Of a DNA stretch of 64,000 nt, positions 22,881-35,006 are shown one piece after another. This stretch comes from Aequorivita viscosa. GTDB taxonomy: Bacteria; Bacteroidota; Bacteroidia; Flavobacteriales; Flavobacteriaceae. The position numbers were made by a program, and so were the translations under genes. Under the pieces are notes generated by a model, which worked only from the letters and a program-made list of their open reading frames with translations, searched no databases and was not told where the DNA came from. Where the stretch lies: NCBI RefSeq assembly GCF_900106795.1, contig NZ_FNNS01000009.1, forward strand, positions 1 through 64,000, written 5' to 3'. The stretch's first letter is position 1. Each line of letters begins with the position of its first letter.

Positions 22881-25800
22881 TTATTCTAAAATAGTCACCC
22901 GAATTCCCTCAGAATGATCACCGAATTCTGGGGCATACATACTCTGGATTGTGGTAATACCATTAGAAAAATTGCCGATATTATTTGCCCGCACATCATA
23001 TTCAAGAACGTAAGTCCCTTTGCTTATGTTATCAAAAAAGAAGTGTGTCGCAGCATCACGGGTGCTCTTGTAATATCCTAGTCCATCTTTATATTCATAT
23101 TCTGAAAGCACATCAACCGGTTCGAAGGCTGAAGCTCGCATATCTTTTAAATGAACGAATTCCATATTTTCCTTTGTAGCAATAATTAAGCGTACTGTAA
23201 TCAAATCACCTAACTTAAGCTGATTCTCTTCTGTTATACGTTGAAGTTGTTGCCCGGTAGAAGTATTCTTTTTTAGATAAAGCTCTTTTTTAATACTTAA
23301 TGGTTTATCTGAATTTGATTCAATTTTATCGGCCTGTTCGAAATATTGCCAGTAAAATCCGCCAAAACCAGGAACATCAGATTTATTATTAATTGATAAA
23401 TCCGCCATATCCTTTTGAATTTCTGAAGGTTTAAAGTTGAGTTTAAAATATCCTGTTTCTACTTCTTTTTCTACTTCAGCTAGCTTTTGTTTCAATAATT
23501 TGGAATCGCCCAGTTTGAACTTTGTTTTGTCCTTTACATCGGTCCAATCTTTTCCATATTGAAGCATGGAGTTTATTGCTTCCGTAGTAGATTTGGTAGA
23601 TGACCAATGTTTTACCTGCTTATTCTTTAGCAACCAAACTTTCATAGCTTCAACCGATTTTCGATCGTTTTCTATTTCTGAAAAGGCTTCAATTAAGAGA
23701 GCTTGTGTTTCTATTGGAGCGTTATACCAATACCAACCTGGCTTATTTTCTATCCAATACATTCCCCAATCTTCATTATTGGATGATGTTTCCTTTAAAT
23801 TATTAATTATTTTTTCAGCTGTTTTAGAATCTCCAAACCGATGGAGAACAATAGCTGCCATTGCTTTCTGAAATAAGGAAGTTTGCAGCCAATTATCCTT
23901 GAGTGAAGCCAAGTCTTTGTCAATAGCTAGTTGTAGTGAATCTGAAATCTTATTGCTCTTTAAATAAAAGCTTCTAGTATATAAATAATGCGTTTTTCTA
24001 ATATTAAGAAACGAATTGAAGTTTGTTAGACCTTTATTTTTATAGTATCTTTTTTCCGTTTTGTTATCCAAAAAACGTATCGCTTTGTCGGTAATGGCTT
24101 TGTAATCGAAAGCAATTGAATCTGTTTGTTTGTTTAGTTTTCCAAAGCCAGCAACTATATAACGTGTGATAAACTCACTTTCTCTACCACCTTCAAACCA
24201 CGGAAATGCTCCATTAGCCATTTGTTGATTCTGCAATTTTTTAAAAGTGGATTCTTGCGATTCTTGTAATTTGTCTAAGTTGAAAAACAATGCCAATCTC
24301 GCCTTTTTTTCTTCTTCAGATTCGGAATCTCTAAACCATGGTGTTTCAGAAAGTATGATAGATTTCAGTTCTTCGTTTTGCTCCAATTCTGACTTTAAGT
24401 CTAGAGGTTCTTTTGTTTTAAAATAGGCGGCTATTCTAGGGTTACTATTTAAGATTTCGGAAGCTATGGAATTGGCATAAAACCTCGCAAATACCTGTTC
24501 GGAACAATCGTGTTCATATTCTATTAAATAGGGTAATGCTTGTATTGCCAACCAAGTTGGGTTTGAAGTGTATTCTAAAGTAAGTTGGTGGTTTTTGAGC
24601 GTAGTGGAGGTGTTATTTTTCAATTTTTCAAAACTGTATTCTTTTGTGGTGTTTCCTCTTACCCAAATAGGAATACTCTCTGTCACCAAAATAGTATTGG
24701 TTAGAACGGGAATTAGGTTTTCTTCTCCATCTGTAAACTTACCTGATTTTGCGACCACCTTATACTGAACTCCTTGAACTCCCTCTGGAATTCTGATTTT
24801 CCAAGACACTGTAGTATTGCCTTTTGCTGAGGTTTGAAAATTGCGATGGTTTATTTCATTACCCATTTCTATATCTATTCGCTTCATGCTAACAGCATCG
24901 AAAAGCTGCAACATTGCTATTCCTGTTTTGTTTTCTGAAGTCAGATTGGAAATCCGTGCCGATATCGAAATACTATCTTTCTCCCTGAAAAACCGAGGCA
25001 TATTTGGAACAATCATCAACTCTTTTTGAGTGATTACAAAATTCTCCAAATATCCAGATTCGGCCTTTTTGTTATGAGCAAGCAGCCGGAGTTTCCATTG
25101 AGTCAGAGCTTCGGGACTTGTAAAGTTGAAGCTGATGTTTCCTTTTTTGTCTGTTCTAAGTTGAGGTTCAAAAAATGCGGTTTCATTAAAATTTGTACGG
25201 GTTTTAACCTCGGTTAATTCTTGCAAACCACTTTTTGTGGTTATAATAATCACACCGTTAGCTCCTCTGGAACCATATAACGCTGTAGCTTCATTTCCTT
25301 TTAAAATACTGATATTCGCGATGTCATCATTATTTAAGGATGCTAAAATATCTGCGGTGTCCTCTGAATTCTTGTCTGAATTAACGGGAACGCCATCAAT
25401 TATTGCTAGTACATTGGAAGTGCCTGGACTCAACGAGCCAGAACCGCGAATTTTTACAGTTGCTCCTTGACCTGGTTTTCCAGTTTCTTGGTTGATTGTT
25501 ACTCCAGATACTTTTCCGGCTAGAATGTCATCTATCTTGTAACTTACTATAGCAGAGGTTTGTACGGTTTTTTCACTACTTGAATATCCAGTAACCACCA
25601 CTTCTTCTAATGAAGCGCCTGGATCTAGGGAGATGTCATATTCGTCTGATTTCACATTTATTTCTTGCGTATCGAATCCGACATACGAAAAAACGAGTTC
25701 TTCGCCTTGAGCTACATCTATGGAATAGTATCCATCAAAATCTGATTGTGTGCCACGATTTGTTCCTTTCACGATTACATTGGCCCCAGGCAAGGGGAGT

Positions 25801-28800
25801 CCGCTATCATCGGTAATAATGCCGTAAACTGTTGATGCATTTGAAGGAATTTTAGAAATAGCTTTTTTTGAATGTTTGAAAATTAAGTTATTACTGGGAT
25901 TAGCAAAATCAAACCCAAACCAGAATATATCTACATTGTTATTGGAAAACTGAAATCTAGGAAGCTCTGAATTCAGATTTCTTAATCGTGTGTACGAGTC
26001 ACTGTTGCTAAGATTCGACGTCCTTGAATAATTGGAATATCCATAGTAATGCCGGAAGTTTAGTTTATTCCAATCTTCTACCTTAAACTGGTCTAAAGAA
26101 CTGTCGTACATAGAGGCAAGCACTTCGGCTTCTGTGGCTTTGTCTTTTTTAGTGATGCTAAAGCTCCATGTTTGCTTGCTTCCTGGTTCAATTTTATTTC
26201 TAAAAGTCTTGATGGCGATATTTATTTCCCCCGATTCTTTCTTTGCAATTGGAAAAGATTCCGTAAACAGTTGGTTTTCAAAATAGCTTTCAAACGATAG
26301 GTTTACGTTGTCGGTTCTTTTCGAATCGATTGGGATACGTATTTTGGAATAGCCGTCTTCTAATTTTATGTGAAGTATTTCAGAAGAAGAAGTACCATTA
26401 TTCGAAACATTCAGAAAAATGGTTTTGATTTCTGATCTGACTTCCAATTCAGCAAAACCATCTTTAAATGGATTATCGTTTTTTTGAGTAAGTGTAAAAA
26501 GCTTATTTACCAAGTCTGTATCAGAATGAATAACTTTAAACTCCGATGAGGTTTTAATTAAATTGTCTTCTGTATCTACTGCTGAAAAAACCAGCTTGTA
26601 ATTCCCGATTGCTTTTTCTTTAAGGAAATCCAATGACAGCTCGTTTTCGGTTTCAGTATTTATTTCTTTTGAAAACACTAAAACTTCTAATTGTTTTTCA
26701 GAATTCGTATTCTTTTCAAACGGAAAGAGTTTTTCAAATTCCTCTTCAGTAAAACCAGGTATTTCTGGATTGGGAAATACACGATCTTTAAATTTAGATT
26801 CTATTTTTGATTGATAATAAATTTCGACTTTTCCTTTTGTAGCTAAAAATTCGCCGTTAAGGTTGGTGCTGTTTAGGGTAAGCACGTTTTCGTTTTTTGT
26901 ATTTATAAGTTGAGGAATAACTGCAGTAAGGGCTAAATTATGGTAGCCAACTTTCACTGTAGTTTGTGAACTTTGGGTTTCACCGCGAGCATCGGTTATA
27001 TCTGCATAGACTGTATAATGGAACACGGGCAATTCCTTTTTGTCCATCGAGGAATACGGGATGGCCGTGAAATCAATTTTGAAGCTGCCGTCATCTTCTG
27101 TAATTGTCTCTCCTTCGGCTATGGTTTTGGTTTCTTCGGAATAATAGGTTCGCCAATAACTGGGGTAAGAGTTTCTTTCAACCCGATAAATCACTTTTGA
27201 AGCATCGAGGTTAACACCCGAAAAGGCAGTTGCTTTTCCTGAAACAGTTACTTCTTGATTTACTACAACAGTTTCCTTAATGGGTTCAAATTCAATTTTA
27301 AAAGTTGGCCGTTTGTATTCTTCTACATTGAAATTAACTGCAGAGAAATTAAAATCCACAAAATCCCAAAATAAATGTTCTTCATCTTCTTCGTTGTATA
27401 AAGGGTCATTTTCTATATTGTCGGGTTCGTCAACCTCAATGGAATATCTTCCTGTTGGGCCGTCTTTCGGGATGATAAATTCAAAAGTGAAGGAGCCAAA
27501 TTCATTGGTTTGTATTTCAAGTTCTTTTACAGTATTGTAATTTGGATCGGATATTTCAACATAAACTGTCAAATTAGGCACTGTGCTTTTTACGCCGTTT
27601 TTCTTTTGAAGCGCAATCCCTTTTACATATACTTTTTGTCCAGGTCTATAAATGGCTCGATCTAGAAAAAATTGCACTTTCCCAAAATAAGCTTCGTAAT
27701 CGTCGTTATTGTATTTCTTATAGTATCCTCGGTGGAAATTTACATTTAGGGTATCGGTGGCATTGGTGACTTCTGCAAGTGAATTTCTGTTGTTGCCAAT
27801 ATGTGGTTTCCAATTTTCTACAGCGACCGTTCCTTGTTCGTTGGTTTTTACTTTGGTGTTTGCAAACGCTATTGAAACGTCCTTTTTTGGTTGCCCTGTT
27901 TTTCTATCTACCACCTGTAGATAATCTACATTATTTCTACTTTTCTGAAGAACCGAGAAATCGGATACGGTTACAAATAAATAATTAAAGTTGTCGGTTT
28001 TATTAAAGCCTGATTTATCAGCTTCAAAAAGCATTAAGTAGGTTCCTTTTGGCAGTAGGGGCAATAAAATCTCGGTGCTGTATTCGAAAAAATCCTCCTT
28101 ATTAGGAAGTTTATATGAAGTTGGTTGTTGCTGGTTCCCATTTCTGATAATATTAGTAATCCAACTATCACGTTGGAAGGCGTTGTTGGGAATTTCAAAA
28201 TCGTTTGAAACTTTATATGCTTTTAGGAATAAGCTATCCGCATTTTTGAAATTCACAAATGCCCTGGTATTTTCTCCTTCATAAACGAACCTTTGCAATT
28301 TCACCTTTATTTCTTTTGAAAGTATTTGCTCCTTTTTAATAAAGGCTAACTTATAAGTATTCGACCTCGATTCTATTTTGAGGATGCTATCCAAGACTTG
28401 AATTGCTGTTTTGTTGTATTCAGGATGTTTGTCTTTTGATGCTAATTTTGAATAGAGATTGGCGCGGAGTAGTTGTACTTCCTGGCGTAATTCAGTTTTC
28501 TTAGTAGCATTCTGAAAACGGGTTAAAATCTGTAAAAAGCCCTCTGAATCCTTGTAAACATAGGTGTCGAAAAATTGTAATCTTTTCAGCTCGTATCGCC
28601 TGTCGGTAAGATTGCTGCGTTCCAATTCCTGATACAGCAATGTCGTTTTTTTGAGGTTGCTGTCTGGTAACGAATCGAACTTTAATGATGTAAATTCAGA
28701 AGATTCTCCAAGAACGGATTGCTTTATTGTAGAGAAAAGAGGCGGTACCTCATCCCAACGGTTTATGTGAGAGGCGTAAATCTCAATGTATTTTTCAAGA

Positions 28801-29369
28801 AGAAATTCATATAAATTTCGGTTCTCGAGAAGCGCTAGCTTTTCAAAATATAAAATAGATTCAAAATCTATTAAAGCTGTGTTTTTTAAACTGTTTTTAT
28901 TTGCGAGCGATTTAGAAATGTAAAAATCTACTTCTCTTTCAAAATCGGGAAGACTCCAACTCTGGAAGTCGGGATTAAAAGTAGATTCAGTAGCTGTTCT
29001 TCCTTGGATTTGATATTTGTTCCTCCGTAAATAGTCATTAAGAGAAGTAATGTAAATATATTCTAGAACAGCTTTGTTTGGCTCGGAAATTTCGGCTATA
29101 TCAGACTTAATGTTTTTGATAATGAGACTTTGTGCATCTTCCTCAAGCTTTTGAATATACTTGGATCGAAAGAAAAAAGTTTTGATTATTTCCAGCTCAT
29201 CTCCTCTTCTTTTTGCCTTTTTATAAATTTTGTTTACCTCCTTGAAAGCCGATTTAATACTGCCAACTTCTTCATATTCAATTACCTTCTTCCAATTTCT
29301 TTCAAAGTTTTGACCAAAAGAATTTAGTGAGAAAAGTAGGATTATAAAGAGAGTGAGATTTTTTATCAT
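22881..29369 (-). CDS. Giant alpha-2-macroglobulin family protein with inserted TonB-plug module
   Basis: 2162 aa with a Sec signal peptide (MIKNLTLFIILLFSLNSFG) and no lipobox. The N-terminal half has macroglobulin domains including MG2 (AIYRPGQKVYVKGIALQ) and ends in a bait-region-type domain (EPGSKQTWSFSITKKDKATEAEV, about 1080-1115). Residues about 1170-1380 are foreign to classical A2M: a CarboxypepD_reg-like repeat (VYGIITDDSGLPLPGANVIVKG) and a SusC-type TonB plug ending GSRGANGVIIITTKSG. The A2M domain follows (SPEALTQWKLRLLAHN, about 1390-1430), then the thioester region with C-S-E-Q (Cys1622), an alpha-alpha toroid and the C-terminal receptor-like part. A2M proteins trap proteases covalently. 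The plug has no beta-barrel, so it is not a transporter. Confidence 0.88.
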   Translation of the reverse strand: MIKNLTLFIILLFSLNSFGQNFERNWKKVIEYEEVGSIKSAFKEVNKIYKKAKRRGDELEIIKTFFFRSKYIQKLEEDAQSLIIKNIKSDIAEISEPNKAVLEYIYITSLNDYLRRNKYQIQGRTATESTFNPDFQSWSLPDFEREVDFYISKSLANKNSLKNTALIDFESILYFEKLALLENRNLYEFLLEKYIEIYASHINRWDEVPPLFSTIKQSVLGESSEFTSLKFDSLPDSNLKKTTLLYQELERSNLTDRRYELKRLQFFDTYVYKDSEGFLQILTRFQNATKKTELRQEVQLLRANLYSKLASKDKHPEYNKTAIQVLDSILKIESRSNTYKLAFIKKEQILSKEIKVKLQRFVYEGENTRAFVNFKNADSLFLKAYKVSNDFEIPNNAFQRDSWITNIIRNGNQQQPTSYKLPNKEDFFEYSTEILLPLLPKGTYLMLFEADKSGFNKTDNFNYLFVTVSDFSVLQKSRNNVDYLQVVDRKTGQPKKDVSIAFANTKVKTNEQGTVAVENWKPHIGNNRNSLAEVTNATDTLNVNFHRGYYKKYNNDDYEAYFGKVQFFLDRAIYRPGQKVYVKGIALQKKNGVKSTVPNLTVYVEISDPNYNTVKELEIQTNEFGSFTFEFIIPKDGPTGRYSIEVDEPDNIENDPLYNEEDEEHLFWDFVDFNFSAVNFNVEEYKRPTFKIEFEPIKETVVVNQEVTVSGKATAFSGVNLDASKVIYRVERNSYPSYWRTYYSEETKTIAEGETITEDDGSFKIDFTAIPYSSMDKKELPVFHYTVYADITDARGETQSSQTTVKVGYHNLALTAVIPQLINTKNENVLTLNSTNLNGEFLATKGKVEIYYQSKIESKFKDRVFPNPEIPGFTEEEFEKLFPFEKNTNSEKQLEVLVFSKEINTETENELSLDFLKEKAIGNYKLVFSAVDTEDNLIKTSSEFKVIHSDTDLVNKLFTLTQKNDNPFKDGFAELEVRSEIKTIFLNVSNNGTSSSEILHIKLEDGYSKIRIPIDSKRTDNVNLSFESYFENQLFTESFPIAKKESGEINIAIKTFRNKIEPGSKQTWSFSITKKDKATEAEVLASMYDSSLDQFKVEDWNKLNFRHYYGYSNYSRTSNLSNSDSYTRLRNLNSELPRFQFSNNNVDIFWFGFDFANPSNNLIFKHSKKAISKIPSNASTVYGIITDDSGLPLPGANVIVKGTNRGTQSDFDGYYSIDVAQGEELVFSYVGFDTQEINVKSDEYDISLDPGASLEEVVVTGYSSSEKTVQTSAIVSYKIDDILAGKVSGVTINQETGKPGQGATVKIRGSGSLSPGTSNVLAIIDGVPVNSDKNSEDTADILASLNNDDIANISILKGNEATALYGSRGANGVIIITTKSGLQELTEVKTRTNFNETAFFEPQLRTDKKGNISFNFTSPEALTQWKLRLLAHNKKAESGYLENFVITQKELMIVPNMPRFFREKDSISISARISNLTSENKTGIAMLQLFDAVSMKRIDIEMGNEINHRNFQTSAKGNTTVSWKIRIPEGVQGVQYKVVAKSGKFTDGEENLIPVLTNTILVTESIPIWVRGNTTKEYSFEKLKNNTSTTLKNHQLTLEYTSNPTWLAIQALPYLIEYEHDCSEQVFARFYANSIASEILNSNPRIAAYFKTKEPLDLKSELEQNEELKSIILSETPWFRDSESEEEKKARLALFFNLDKLQESQESTFKKLQNQQMANGAFPWFEGGRESEFITRYIVAGFGKLNKQTDSIAFDYKAITDKAIRFLDNKTEKRYYKNKGLTNFNSFLNIRKTHYLYTRSFYLKSNKISDSLQLAIDKDLASLKDNWLQTSLFQKAMAAIVLHRFGDSKTAEKIINNLKETSSNNEDWGMYWIENKPGWYWYNAPIETQALLIEAFSEIENDRKSVEAMKVWLLKNKQVKHWSSTKSTTEAINSMLQYGKDWTDVKDKTKFKLGDSKLLKQKLAEVEKEVETGYFKLNFKPSEIQKDMADLSINNKSDVPGFGGFYWQYFEQADKIESNSDKPLSIKKELYLKKNTSTGQQLQRITEENQLKLGDLITVRLIIATKENMEFVHLKDMRASAFEPVDVLSEYEYKDGLGYYKSTRDAATHFFFDNISKGTYVLEYDVRANNIGNFSNGITTIQSMYAPEFGDHSEGIRVTILE

Positions 29370-29724
29370 AACAAATTGATTTTGTGGAATAAGATACTAA
29401 CTTAAGTTAAAACATCAATTAGATGATGATTTTTTTAAAATAGGCTAGATTCGATACTCTGAATTTATATTTAAAAGATATGTGTGAATAAGAAGGTTGT
29501 TAAAAGGCGAAAAACATTTGGTTTGTCAGGTCGATCGCCAGCCCGAAAGATTAACCTGGCGGGCAGTCGAGACCTAATTGGAAGCTAAGAACATAAAATT
29601 ATCGACCTCGCTCGAACAAACAAGCATAGTTGCTTTTTGACAGCGCAAATTTTGAATTTTAAAATCTGTCTTTTCTGCTTTGGAAAGAATAGCATTAAAG
29701 TATGTCTCAATTTCGCCAAACTGC
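29370..29724. other. Intergenic region with REP-like hairpin words
   Basis: Gene-free stretch between the divergent A2M and MFS genes. It holds a hairpin (CGCCAG 29536-29541, CTGGCG 29556-29561) and the word GCAGTCGAGACC (29563-29574), the inverted copy of 22804-22815. No coding potential is seen. Confidence 0.5.
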
Positions 29725-29732
29725 TACCTTTG
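29725..29732 (+). promoter_or_regulatory. Bacteroidota -7 element TACCTTTG for the MFS gene
   Basis: Exact TAnnTTTG match 23 bp upstream of the ATG at 29756. It lies downstream of an in-frame ATG at 29702, arguing against that earlier start. Confidence 0.45.
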
Positions 29733-29755
29733 CCCAAAATTCCAGAAACAGAAAA

Positions 29756-31255
29756 ATGCAGGAAAAACCCGTGAAAGAAATGCGTCGGGATTGGATCTTG
29801 ATTGCGCTAATGCTTACAATGAGTTTGGCCGCTATGGACGCTACTATAGTCGCCACAGCCATTCCTCAAATTGTGGGTGATCTTGGCGGTTTTTCGCTGT
29901 TCAGTTGGTTGTTTTCCATTTATTTACTCATCCAAACTATCACCATTCCCGTTTATGGGAAATTGGCAGATATTTATGGCCGCAAACCAATTTTAATATT
30001 CGGAATTGTAATTTTCGTAATAGGCTCGGCTTCTTGTGGCGCAGCTTGGAATATGTATTCCTTGATTGTTTTTAGAGGAGTGCAAGCAGTAGGAGCGGGG
30101 GCAATAATGGCTACGGTAAATACTATAGCCGGCGATATTTATACAATTAAACAGCGCGCCAAAATTCAAGGTTGGCTATCCAGTGTTTGGGGTATTTCAG
30201 CAATCTTAGGCCCTGCTATTGGTGGCGCCTTGGCTGACTACGCTTCGTGGCGATGGATATTTTTGATAAACATTCCATTGGGAGCTGGGTCTATAGCTTT
30301 GATAGCCTATTTTCTTAAAGAGAATAAAGTGTCTAAACGGCATAAAATTGATTGGGCCGGTGCCGCTGCAATGCTTATTACAGGAAGTATAATCATGTTT
30401 GGACTGCTTCAAGGTGGGCAAGCTTGGCCGTGGTTTTCTCAGAATACGTTGATAATAATTCTAATAGCGATGGTGATGATTTATATCACCGTGAGGATTG
30501 AACGCCGCGCAGAAGAACCTATCTTACCAAGCTGGGTCTGGAAAAAACGAATAATTTTAGGGTCTAATCTCGCAACTATCGGAATGGGAATAGCCACAAT
30601 GGGCCCGAGTATGTTTCTACCTGTTTTTGCGCAGTCGGTTACAGGCGTTGGGGCGATGGCAGCTGGATTTATTTTGGCAAGTATGAGCATTACTTGGCCG
30701 CTTTCATCAGCTTTATCTGGAAATTTATACTTGCGCATTGGTTTTCGGAATACTGCACTCTGCGGAATTACCATAGTTATTTTAGGGGCTTCAAGTTTCC
30801 TGTTCTTGCCTTTTCCAGGTCCCGTTTGGGCGCTAGTGGCGATACAAATGACACTGGGAGCAGGTTTCGGGCTTATAACCACGCCTTTGTTGGTCGGAAT
30901 TCAATCTACCGTAGTTTGGGAGCAGCGCGGAGTGGTAACGGGCACAAGTATGTTCTCTCGCTATTTTGGACAAAGTATTGGGGCGGCAGTATTTGCAGCT
31001 ATATTTAATTCAGTACTTACCGATAGAATTGATACTGCTCCTGCAAATCTGCAAGCAGAACTTCCAAGTGTAAACAAAGTGGTTGAGGTGCTTCAATCGC
31101 ATAAATCTGTTTCGGAAGTAAGCTTGTATCTACGCGAAACATTCTTTGCCGCCACACAAAATGTGTATATGGGGATGGTAATTGCTGGGCTTGTAACATT
31201 AACTATTTTACTTCTTACTCCAGCAAAATTTCCTACGCTTCAGGAGAAACAATAA
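29756..31255 (+). CDS. MFS drug-exporter-like transporter, DHA2 (14-TM) type
   Basis: 499 aa from the chosen ATG. It has the H+-antiporter MFS layout of the EmrB/QacA subfamily: the first helix with MDATIVATAIPQIVGDLGG (motif D1-like), the loop motif GKLADIYGRKP (motif A) and the antiporter motif C region (GISAILGPAIGGAL), with about 14 hydrophobic segments overall. It probably exports small toxic compounds from the inner membrane. The frame is open from an ATG at 29702, but those 18 residues are polar, unlike the family, and precede the -7 element. No regulator gene is adjacent. Confidence 0.88.
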   Translation: MQEKPVKEMRRDWILIALMLTMSLAAMDATIVATAIPQIVGDLGGFSLFSWLFSIYLLIQTITIPVYGKLADIYGRKPILIFGIVIFVIGSASCGAAWNMYSLIVFRGVQAVGAGAIMATVNTIAGDIYTIKQRAKIQGWLSSVWGISAILGPAIGGALADYASWRWIFLINIPLGAGSIALIAYFLKENKVSKRHKIDWAGAAAMLITGSIIMFGLLQGGQAWPWFSQNTLIIILIAMVMIYITVRIERRAEEPILPSWVWKKRIILGSNLATIGMGIATMGPSMFLPVFAQSVTGVGAMAAGFILASMSITWPLSSALSGNLYLRIGFRNTALCGITIVILGASSFLFLPFPGPVWALVAIQMTLGAGFGLITTPLLVGIQSTVVWEQRGVVTGTSMFSRYFGQSIGAAVFAAIFNSVLTDRIDTAPANLQAELPSVNKVVEVLQSHKSVSEVSLYLRETFFAATQNVYMGMVIAGLVTLTILLLTPAKFPTLQEKQ

Positions 31256-31653: not shown

Positions 31654-32484
31654 ATGAAAACAACCTTAAAACGTCTTAAAGACATCCGTTCGGAAAATTG
31701 TATTACAATTATTATGACCACACACCGAACAAAACCTGAGTATTTAAATGATGATTTGCGTCTTAAAAACCTCATTAAAGAAGTCGAAACACGCCTCACA
31801 GCAGATGTAGATAAAAAGAAAGCTGATGAGTTGTTAGAAAAATTGAATTCTTTAGCCAAGAGTTTAGACCACAGTCAAAATCTAGAAAGTTTGATGCTTT
31901 TCGTAAATGAAGACACAGCAGAATATGTCAGATTGCCTATAAATGTGGAAGATCGAGTTGTAATTGACGATACCTTCGCAACAAGAGATCTTTTTAGAGC
32001 TATTCATATAGAAATGCATTACTATATTTTGGTGCTAAGTCAAGAGAAAATTAGATTGATTGAAGCTATGAACGATAAGGTAATAAAGGAAATTGGAAAT
32101 CCTTTCCCACTTGAAGATATTCAAGAATTTTCGAAAGACGACCCAAGCGATTCAGTTTCTTCGCGCCGAACAAATTTGATGATTGAGTTTTTTAATCGAG
32201 CAGACAAGGACGTAAATGAAAAGCGAAAATCAAATCCGCTACCGGTATTTATCTGTGGTTTGGAAGAAAACTACAATGAGTATATTAAAATTGCCGATTT
32301 AAAAAACACCCTTTTTGATGTGTATTTAGATAAAAATAAAATCAACGACGCTGCTCATTCAATAGTAGAAGATGCCTGGGCAGTAGTAAAGAATTATGTG
32401 ATTGAAAAGAACAACGGCCGTAAAGCCGAATTGAAAAAAGCAGTAACCGAGAACAAATTTGTTAGTGATACAAACGAAATTTGA
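31654..32484 (+). CDS. baeRF (bacterial release-factor-like) protein, prematurely stopped by an in-frame TGA
   Basis: 276 aa up to a TGA at 32482-32484. The N-terminus (MKTTLKRLKDIRSENCITIIMTTHRT) and the order of segments match the bacterial archaeo-eukaryotic release factor (baeRF) family, relatives of eRF1/Pelota predicted to act in translation or ribosome rescue. The C-terminal eRF1 domain-3-like part is missing from this frame but continues in the same frame directly after the stop (32485-32727). The stop sits at NEI-stop-RAISEGR, where I expect a conserved Trp (NEIW), so TGG-to-TGA is the simplest change. A pseudogene, stop readthrough or sequence error are all possible. Confidence 0.8.
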   Translation: MKTTLKRLKDIRSENCITIIMTTHRTKPEYLNDDLRLKNLIKEVETRLTADVDKKKADELLEKLNSLAKSLDHSQNLESLMLFVNEDTAEYVRLPINVEDRVVIDDTFATRDLFRAIHIEMHYYILVLSQEKIRLIEAMNDKVIKEIGNPFPLEDIQEFSKDDPSDSVSSRRTNLMIEFFNRADKDVNEKRKSNPLPVFICGLEENYNEYIKIADLKNTLFDVYLDKNKINDAAHSIVEDAWAVVKNYVIEKNNGRKAELKKAVTENKFVSDTNEI

Positions 32485-32727
32485 AGAGCTATTTCAGAAG
32501 GAAGAGTCCAAACATTATTCATTGAGCAAGGTCTTTTTCAACCTGCTATTATGAAAGGAGATGAAATAGTTTATGTTTCTGAAGAACAGCGAAACGATAC
32601 AGGTGTAATTGATGATATTTACGACGAAATGATCGAAGCCAATATGAATTTTGGTGGAGACGTGGTTTTTCTTCCAAAAGGAGAGCTTTCAAAATTTAAT
32701 GGTTTTGGAGCTATCACACGGTATTAG
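32485..32727 (+). pseudogene. 3' part of the baeRF gene, in frame after the TGA
   Basis: 80 codons continue in the same frame as 31654-32484 and end in TAG: RAISEGRVQTLFIEQGLFQPA, IDDIYDEMIEANMNFGGDVV, FLPKGELSKFNGFGAITRY. These are the conserved C-terminal motifs of the family (GRVxTLFIExGxFQPA and GGDVVFLPKGEL). Together the two parts make a normal-length 357-codon frame (31654-32727). No decay is visible apart from the one stop, so the change is recent or the stop is tolerated. Confidence 0.85.
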
Positions 32728-34130: not shown

Positions 34131-35006
34131 ATGGCTTCAGGAATTTTCGCAGTATTGGATGATATAGCTGTCTTAATGGACGATGTAGCCATGATGAGTA
34201 AAGTTGCAGCTAAAAAAACAGCTGGAATTTTAGGGGACGATTTAGCTGTGAATGCTGAAAAAGCCTCAGGATTTGCCTCTTCGCGAGAAATACCAGTGTT
34301 GTGGGCAATTTCGAAAGGATCTTTATTGAATAAAGTTATTATCCTTCCAATAGCCTTCCTTTTAACAGCTTTTTTACCTGTAGCTATTATTGTTATTTTG
34401 GTTTTGGGAGGAATCTATTTAGCTTATGAAGGAGCCGAGAAAATTTACGAATTCTTATTTCCTCACAAACACGATAAAGAATCATTGATTGATGAAGGAC
34501 TTACCGAAGCCGAGATTTTGGCAATAGAAAAGGTGCGAGTGCGGGATGCAATTGTTACCGATTTTATTCTGTCTGTAGAAATAATAATTATCGCTCTTGG
34601 CAGTGTAGCCGGGCAACCCTTGCTTACCCAAATTATGGTTGTTAGTATTATTGCACTCATTGCCACAGTTGGCGTGTATGGAATAGTAGCGTTAATTGTT
34701 CGTATGGATGAGGCGGGCTATAAACTTATAGCAAGCAGCAAGAAAGAAAAGAGTTTTGCTAAATTCTTAGGAAATATACTCGTCAAAGCACTACCGTACG
34801 TTATAAGGGGGTTGAGTGTAATTGGCACCATAGCCTTACTATTTGTTGCTGGTGGTATTTTTGTTCACAATCTCGATTTCTTTCACGGTTTTCTACCCGA
34901 ATTGCCATCCCTCGTTCTTGAATTTGCTGTTGGGTTGGTGGTTGGTTTTCTTGCACTTTTAGTGGTGATGATATCAAAGTGGTCCTGGAAGGCTATTCGC
35001 AAGTGA
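34131..35006 (+). CDS. DUF808 family membrane protein
   Basis: 291 aa. The N-terminus ASGIFAVLDDIAVLMDDVAMMSKVAAKKTAGILGDDLAVNAE is the characteristic opening of the DUF808/YedI family. About six transmembrane helices follow (e.g. about 66-95, 139-160, 165-185, 225-245, 262-283), with a charged loop (FPHKHDKESLIDEGLTEAE). The family is widespread in the inner membrane and has no established function. Confidence 0.9.
   Translation: MASGIFAVLDDIAVLMDDVAMMSKVAAKKTAGILGDDLAVNAEKASGFASSREIPVLWAISKGSLLNKVIILPIAFLLTAFLPVAIIVILVLGGIYLAYEGAEKIYEFLFPHKHDKESLIDEGLTEAEILAIEKVRVRDAIVTDFILSVEIIIIALGSVAGQPLLTQIMVVSIIALIATVGVYGIVALIVRMDEAGYKLIASSKKEKSFAKFLGNILVKALPYVIRGLSVIGTIALLFVAGGIFVHNLDFFHGFLPELPSLVLEFAVGLVVGFLALLVVMISKWSWKAIRK

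Follow-up and report, generated by a model that had tools for sequence, protein, structure and literature searches.

The window, i.e. the whole stretch of 64,000 nucleotides that was analysed, from a bacterium of the family Flavobacteriaceae, carries on its forward strand a gene with a reading frame (31654-32727) that starts with ATG at 31654, runs through 276 sense codons, meets a TGA at 32482-32484 as codon 277 and then continues for 80 sense codons to a TAG at 32725-32727. The base following the TGA is A (UGA-A). The features considered here are as follows:

29702..31255, + strand: DHA2/EmrB-like MFS efflux gene (TIGR00711, 187 bits, below the cut-off of 230)
31654..32481, + strand: Balon/baeRF gene before the stop, 276 codons; N-terminal domain at about residues 1-121, then the middle domain (PF18845), starting at residue 122; the boundaries are approximate and taken from the Pfam match
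32482..32484, + strand: in-frame TGA, codon 277, in UGA-A context (sequence, orthologue alignment)
32485..32727, + strand: 80 intact codons and terminal TAG, with an eRF1_3-like C-terminal domain (PF03465 weak, E 0.02, below cut-off; orthologue alignment)
34131..35006, + strand: YedI-like (PRK10062) gene, used as downstream syntenic marker (257 bits, below the model cut-off of 475)

When the frame was re-read, the coordinates and the NEI-stop-RAISEGR context of the original prediction were found to be exact. Elsewhere in the window, at 22881-29369 on the reverse strand, a bacterial alpha-2-macroglobulin-like protein of 2162 aa (MG2, A2M, bMG10) is encoded. It has CarboxypepD_reg-like and TonB Plug domains inserted at residues 1180-1373, and this insert resembles the front of a SusC-type receptor.

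The interrupted gene had been described as a baeRF gene. The baeRF type held, with a Pfam match to baeRF_family3 at residues 122-284 and a weak one, below cut-off, to eRF1_3 at residues 272-357, while the identity could be refined: by its sequence the gene is a homologue of the ribosome hibernation factor Balon. When TGA is read as Trp, residues 1-357 of the protein align end to end with residues 1-369 of PDB 8rd8_B (E 6.5e-53), and the GGQ release motif is absent from the 357-residue read-through sequence. The PDB molecule name of 8rd8_B is "Methyl-accepting chemotaxis protein"; the Balon paper, with which 8RD8, 8RDV and 8RDW were deposited, names Psychrobacter urativorans AOC03_06830 as Balon (PMC10901736). 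The NCBIfam equivalog NF052287 ("AOC03_06830 family ribosome hibernation factor") has a cut-off of 330 bits, which is exceeded by the read-through protein (356.3) but not by the 276-aa product of translation table 11 (253.4). A structure prediction of the protein was set aside (mean pLDDT 39.5 from 8 sequences). In Balon the C-terminal domain contacts EF-Tu (EF-Tu-GDP), and other parts of the protein contact the decoding and catalytic centres (PMC10901736). The stop at codon 277 takes away almost the whole of the corresponding domain.

To judge from its coding character and conservation, the frame behind the stop (32485-32727) is not a chance open frame. Its hexamer coding score was +0.66, whereas the five remaining frames scored between -0.47 and -0.97. 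The orthologue alignment spans the stop, the orthologues being 357 aa long in 20 of 21 cases and 355 aa in one, and the 80 codons contain no further stop or indel in this alignment, in agreement with the C-terminal part having been called intact. The 80 residues are 84-90 % identical to those of seven of the nine nearest congeners, and 82 and 76 % identical to those of the remaining two. Comparison of the codon in relatives had been proposed as a check. Codon 277 is TGG in 17 of the 21 orthologues (12 from congeners, 9 from named genomes), TTC in two and TAT in two, i.e. aromatic in every relative and a stop in none. The TGA thus stands at a Trp position, and it differs from the codon of the nearest relatives by a single base, both as predicted.

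The nearest sequence, that of genome G002, is 79 % identical over the whole length and is sister to the window's gene (support 99/95). Within the genus set of 28 genomes (25 with a completeness of 90 % or more and a contamination of no more than 5 %), the gene was present in 12 of the 27 other genomes searched, with an internal stop in none of the 12, and unmatched in 15. A family search of 397 genomes gave matches in 39, with 45 rows of which many are distant or partial, and an internal stop in the window's row only. Intact orthologues and a lineage-specific stop, as in a nonsense pseudogene, were found for the Balon gene. As a separate observation, the orthologue of Flavobacteriaceae bacterium LYZ1037 has an independent in-frame TAA at codon 52, the rest of its frame being intact.

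Decay after the stop, also expected of a nonsense pseudogene, was not found: residues absent from the 21 other sequences number 25 in the 276 codons before the stop and none in the 80 codons after it. The terminal branch of the post-stop part was 0.018-0.084 per site, which implies 1.5-6.7 replacements. Synonymous sites are saturated in comparison with G002, and with an assumed terminal dS of 0.5-2 a neutral tail would be expected to gain, as a rough estimate, about 90-350 replacements over the branch. The stop would then, again roughly, cover at most about 0.4-8 % of the terminal branch. Because the 80 codons are without decay, the stop must have arisen very recently unless the tail is still in use, and if the gene is a pseudogene, only a very young one would be compatible with this tail.

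The two parts of the gene have evolved at different rates. Before the stop (31654-32481) the terminal branch was 0.237 in the window's lineage and 0.066 in the sister G002, whereas after it (32485-32724) the corresponding values were 0.084 and 0.137. Among ten close sequences, positions at which the other nine do not vary had changed in the window's gene in 18 of 162 cases before the stop and in 0 of 51 after it (stratified permutation of the contrast, P 0.003, post hoc and uncorrected). No acceleration was seen in three neighbouring genes, for each of which 3 to 6 outgroups were used. General relaxation is not supported, since it would have affected both parts and the post-stop part is not accelerated. 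Nor is the post-stop part likely to result from recent gene conversion, as none of the nine congeners used in the comparison comes near it at synonymous positions (of the codons for the same residue, 47-61 % are identical).

Programmed readthrough similar to the autoregulation of RF2 had been put forward as a further possibility, and it was not supported. The tRNA search listed 33 genes, with an ARAGORN anticodon for each; the list is incomplete, since it contains no tRNA-Ile. The single tRNA-Trp listed has the anticodon CCA, and a tRNA with the anticodon UCA was not among the 33 listed from this draft assembly. The tRNA-Trp changes named for recoding in the extract from PMC13092985 (4-bp anticodon stem, A9C, G24A) are absent from the listed tRNA-Trp, which has a 5-bp anticodon stem (CTGGT/ACCAG), A9 and G24. 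UGA-to-Trp recoding in the genome is thus contradicted by the listed tRNAs, and genes broken by TAA occur as well. Selenocysteine at codon 277 was rejected because no tRNA-Sec exceeded the cut-off, the best score being 41.3 vs 47 bits, at a tRNA-Ser; the same search exceeded the cut-off in 5 of 14 control genomes. Neither a stop conserved among relatives nor a structured 3' signal, as would be expected with programmed readthrough, was found: none of the 21 relatives has the stop, and the three stretches folded around it gave no RNA fold signal (z 0.51, -1.13 and 0.07). The prfB match in the window's genome, which begins at profile position 14, contains no stop, which argues against RF2-like autoregulation.

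In E. coli, tRNA-Trp misreads UGA especially readily when the next base is A (Engelberg-Kulka 1981, cited in the extract from PMC5289835). With one reporter, UGA readthrough was 12 % in E. coli vs 0.04-0.08 % in two Pseudomonas species (extract from PMC9481147). As UGA-A is leaky in E. coli and levels vary greatly between species, trace readthrough of the UGA-A described here is plausible by analogy.

The genus was also scanned, by coding score, for stops flanked by coding sequence on both sides. In the window's genome 864 kb gave 13 candidates, with 6 more found in G002 (400 kb), 2 in G025 (220 kb) and 3 in G008 (180 kb); they were judged by eye and many look like gene ends or are ambiguous, and the counts are too few and too dependent on judgement for a comparison of rates. 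Besides the Balon gene, which is itself one of the clear cases, at least three genes in these 864 kb seem to be interrupted by TGA or TAA. A TPR/LuxR-type regulator gene (G000:C31:35248) has an in-frame TGA and is a clear case by eye; it has no close copy in the other 27 genus genomes, so that the call relies on the look of its two parts. An SDR-like gene, named by eye (C37, about 121358), is a clear case with an in-frame TAA. An aminotransferase class V gene (G000:C28:55367), found under one of two sets of scan thresholds, has two in-frame stops, TAA and TGA, the second 80 codons further (L186), and is otherwise intact, while G014 and G023 read through both positions in its orthologue. Inspection by eye also revealed single-stop breaks in G002, whose genome is a single contig (at least one of them clear, 322404), and in G008 (one, 161181). 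Breaks in both the window's and sister genomes suggest that single-stop breaks are an ordinary background which is not limited to TGA.

Loss of Balon seems tolerable. Deletion of Balon made Psychrobacter arcticus grow slightly faster in rich medium and impaired the early part of recovery after long stationary phase (PMC10901736). Three RaiA/HPF-domain genes are present in the window's genome, which gave no second match to baeRF_family3. The EmrB-like efflux gene is the next gene upstream of the Balon gene also in 4 of the 12 congeners, and in 7 of the 12 the Balon gene precedes the same YedI-like marker, its location being different in the other 5. No gene remnants were seen in the orthologous slot of 19 regions (best E 1.4), 14 of them from genomes in which the gene was unmatched and 5 from genomes that have it elsewhere; G007, which has no marker, was left out, and some regions ended at contig ends.

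The observations are probably best accounted for by a plain nonsense mutation which the Balon-family factor gene acquired at codon 277 very recently. Normal termination would then yield a 276-aa protein that includes the counterparts of the regions with which Balon touches the decoding and catalytic centres, and since nearly all of the EF-Tu-GDP-contacting domain would be lost, the factor is inferred to be null or weakened. Trace readthrough at UGA-A by tRNA-Trp may still yield a little full-length protein. With no match to the gene in 15 of 27 congeners, three RaiA/HPF genes and the growth gain of the deletion, the mutation could be drift or a change selected in culture. The contrast between the fast evolution before the stop and its absence after it is not explained by a young nonsense mutation and counts against this explanation. 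A recent nonsense mutation and a sequencing error had both been named originally as options, and both are kept. Error in sequencing or assembly, with the gene intact in the cell, is the main rival, albeit an unlikely one. The assembly is a draft of 62 contigs, and a single-base difference from the codon of the nearest relatives with fully intact sequence behind it is what an error could produce, but the similar breaks in G002 and G008 and the two stops in the aminotransferase gene speak somewhat against it. The nonsense mutation is most likely real.

It is very improbable that the truncation is functional, with the 276-aa protein bringing about hibernation independently of EF-Tu. Both the N-terminal and the middle domain are kept, one baeRF-1 family has retained its N-terminal domain and lost the C-terminal Pelota domain (extract from PMC6514570), and the fast evolution before the stop on this lineage could be adaptation. 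However, the undecayed tail makes the stop too young for much shaping by selection, the truncated protein does not reach the equivalog cut-off and no relative has the stop. There is a slighter chance still that tRNA-Trp readthrough gives useful amounts of full-length Balon. Trp as the usual residue, the conserved C-terminal part and the leakiness of UGA-A in E. coli would agree with this, but the listed tRNAs, the tRNA-Sec score, the lack of a fold signal and of conservation of the stop, and the TAA breaks in the same genome do not. In the most doubtful of the readings, a leaky UGA-A would give a short factor by termination and full-length Balon by Trp readthrough, in a ratio set by termination efficiency, with readthrough perhaps raised under stress with altered termination or decoding accuracy; a conserved C-terminal part and a fast-evolving front part would fit such an arrangement.

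Recoding, if true, would have connected hibernation with termination, but the evidence favours ordinary breakage. The Balon gene has apparently been caught at the moment of loss, in a clade which holds the gene patchily. The second independent stop, in LYZ1037, together with the growth gain after deletion (PMC10901736), gives the testable idea of repeated loss, possibly in culture. What is seen here is most likely recent gene breakage and not a new way of decoding stops.

In RF2 the in-frame UGA lies near the start of the gene. Like prfB, the window's gene contains an in-frame UGA and would code for a protein of the ribosomal A site, but it has no frame change, its stop is late and found in no relative, and the prfB match of its own genome is stop-free, whereas in RF2 the frame is shifted at CUU UGA C (extract from PMC5289835). 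The likeness to Balon covers the whole length of the read-through protein, which, unlike the 276-aa product, exceeds the equivalog cut-off; the difference is that the frame here is open to codon 276 only, with the EF-Tu-contacting domain behind the stop. The decoding-centre HP motif of Balon, which we take to be the HP in HREHP, is replaced by KP in the HRTKP of the window's gene, at a position that varies among relatives. The EmrB-like efflux gene adjoining the window's gene is of a neighbour type listed in the Balon paper (PMC10901736). Nonsense-type pseudogenes show the same picture, with one stop in a patchily distributed gene that is intact apart from it, and no difference from them was seen except the youth of this stop.
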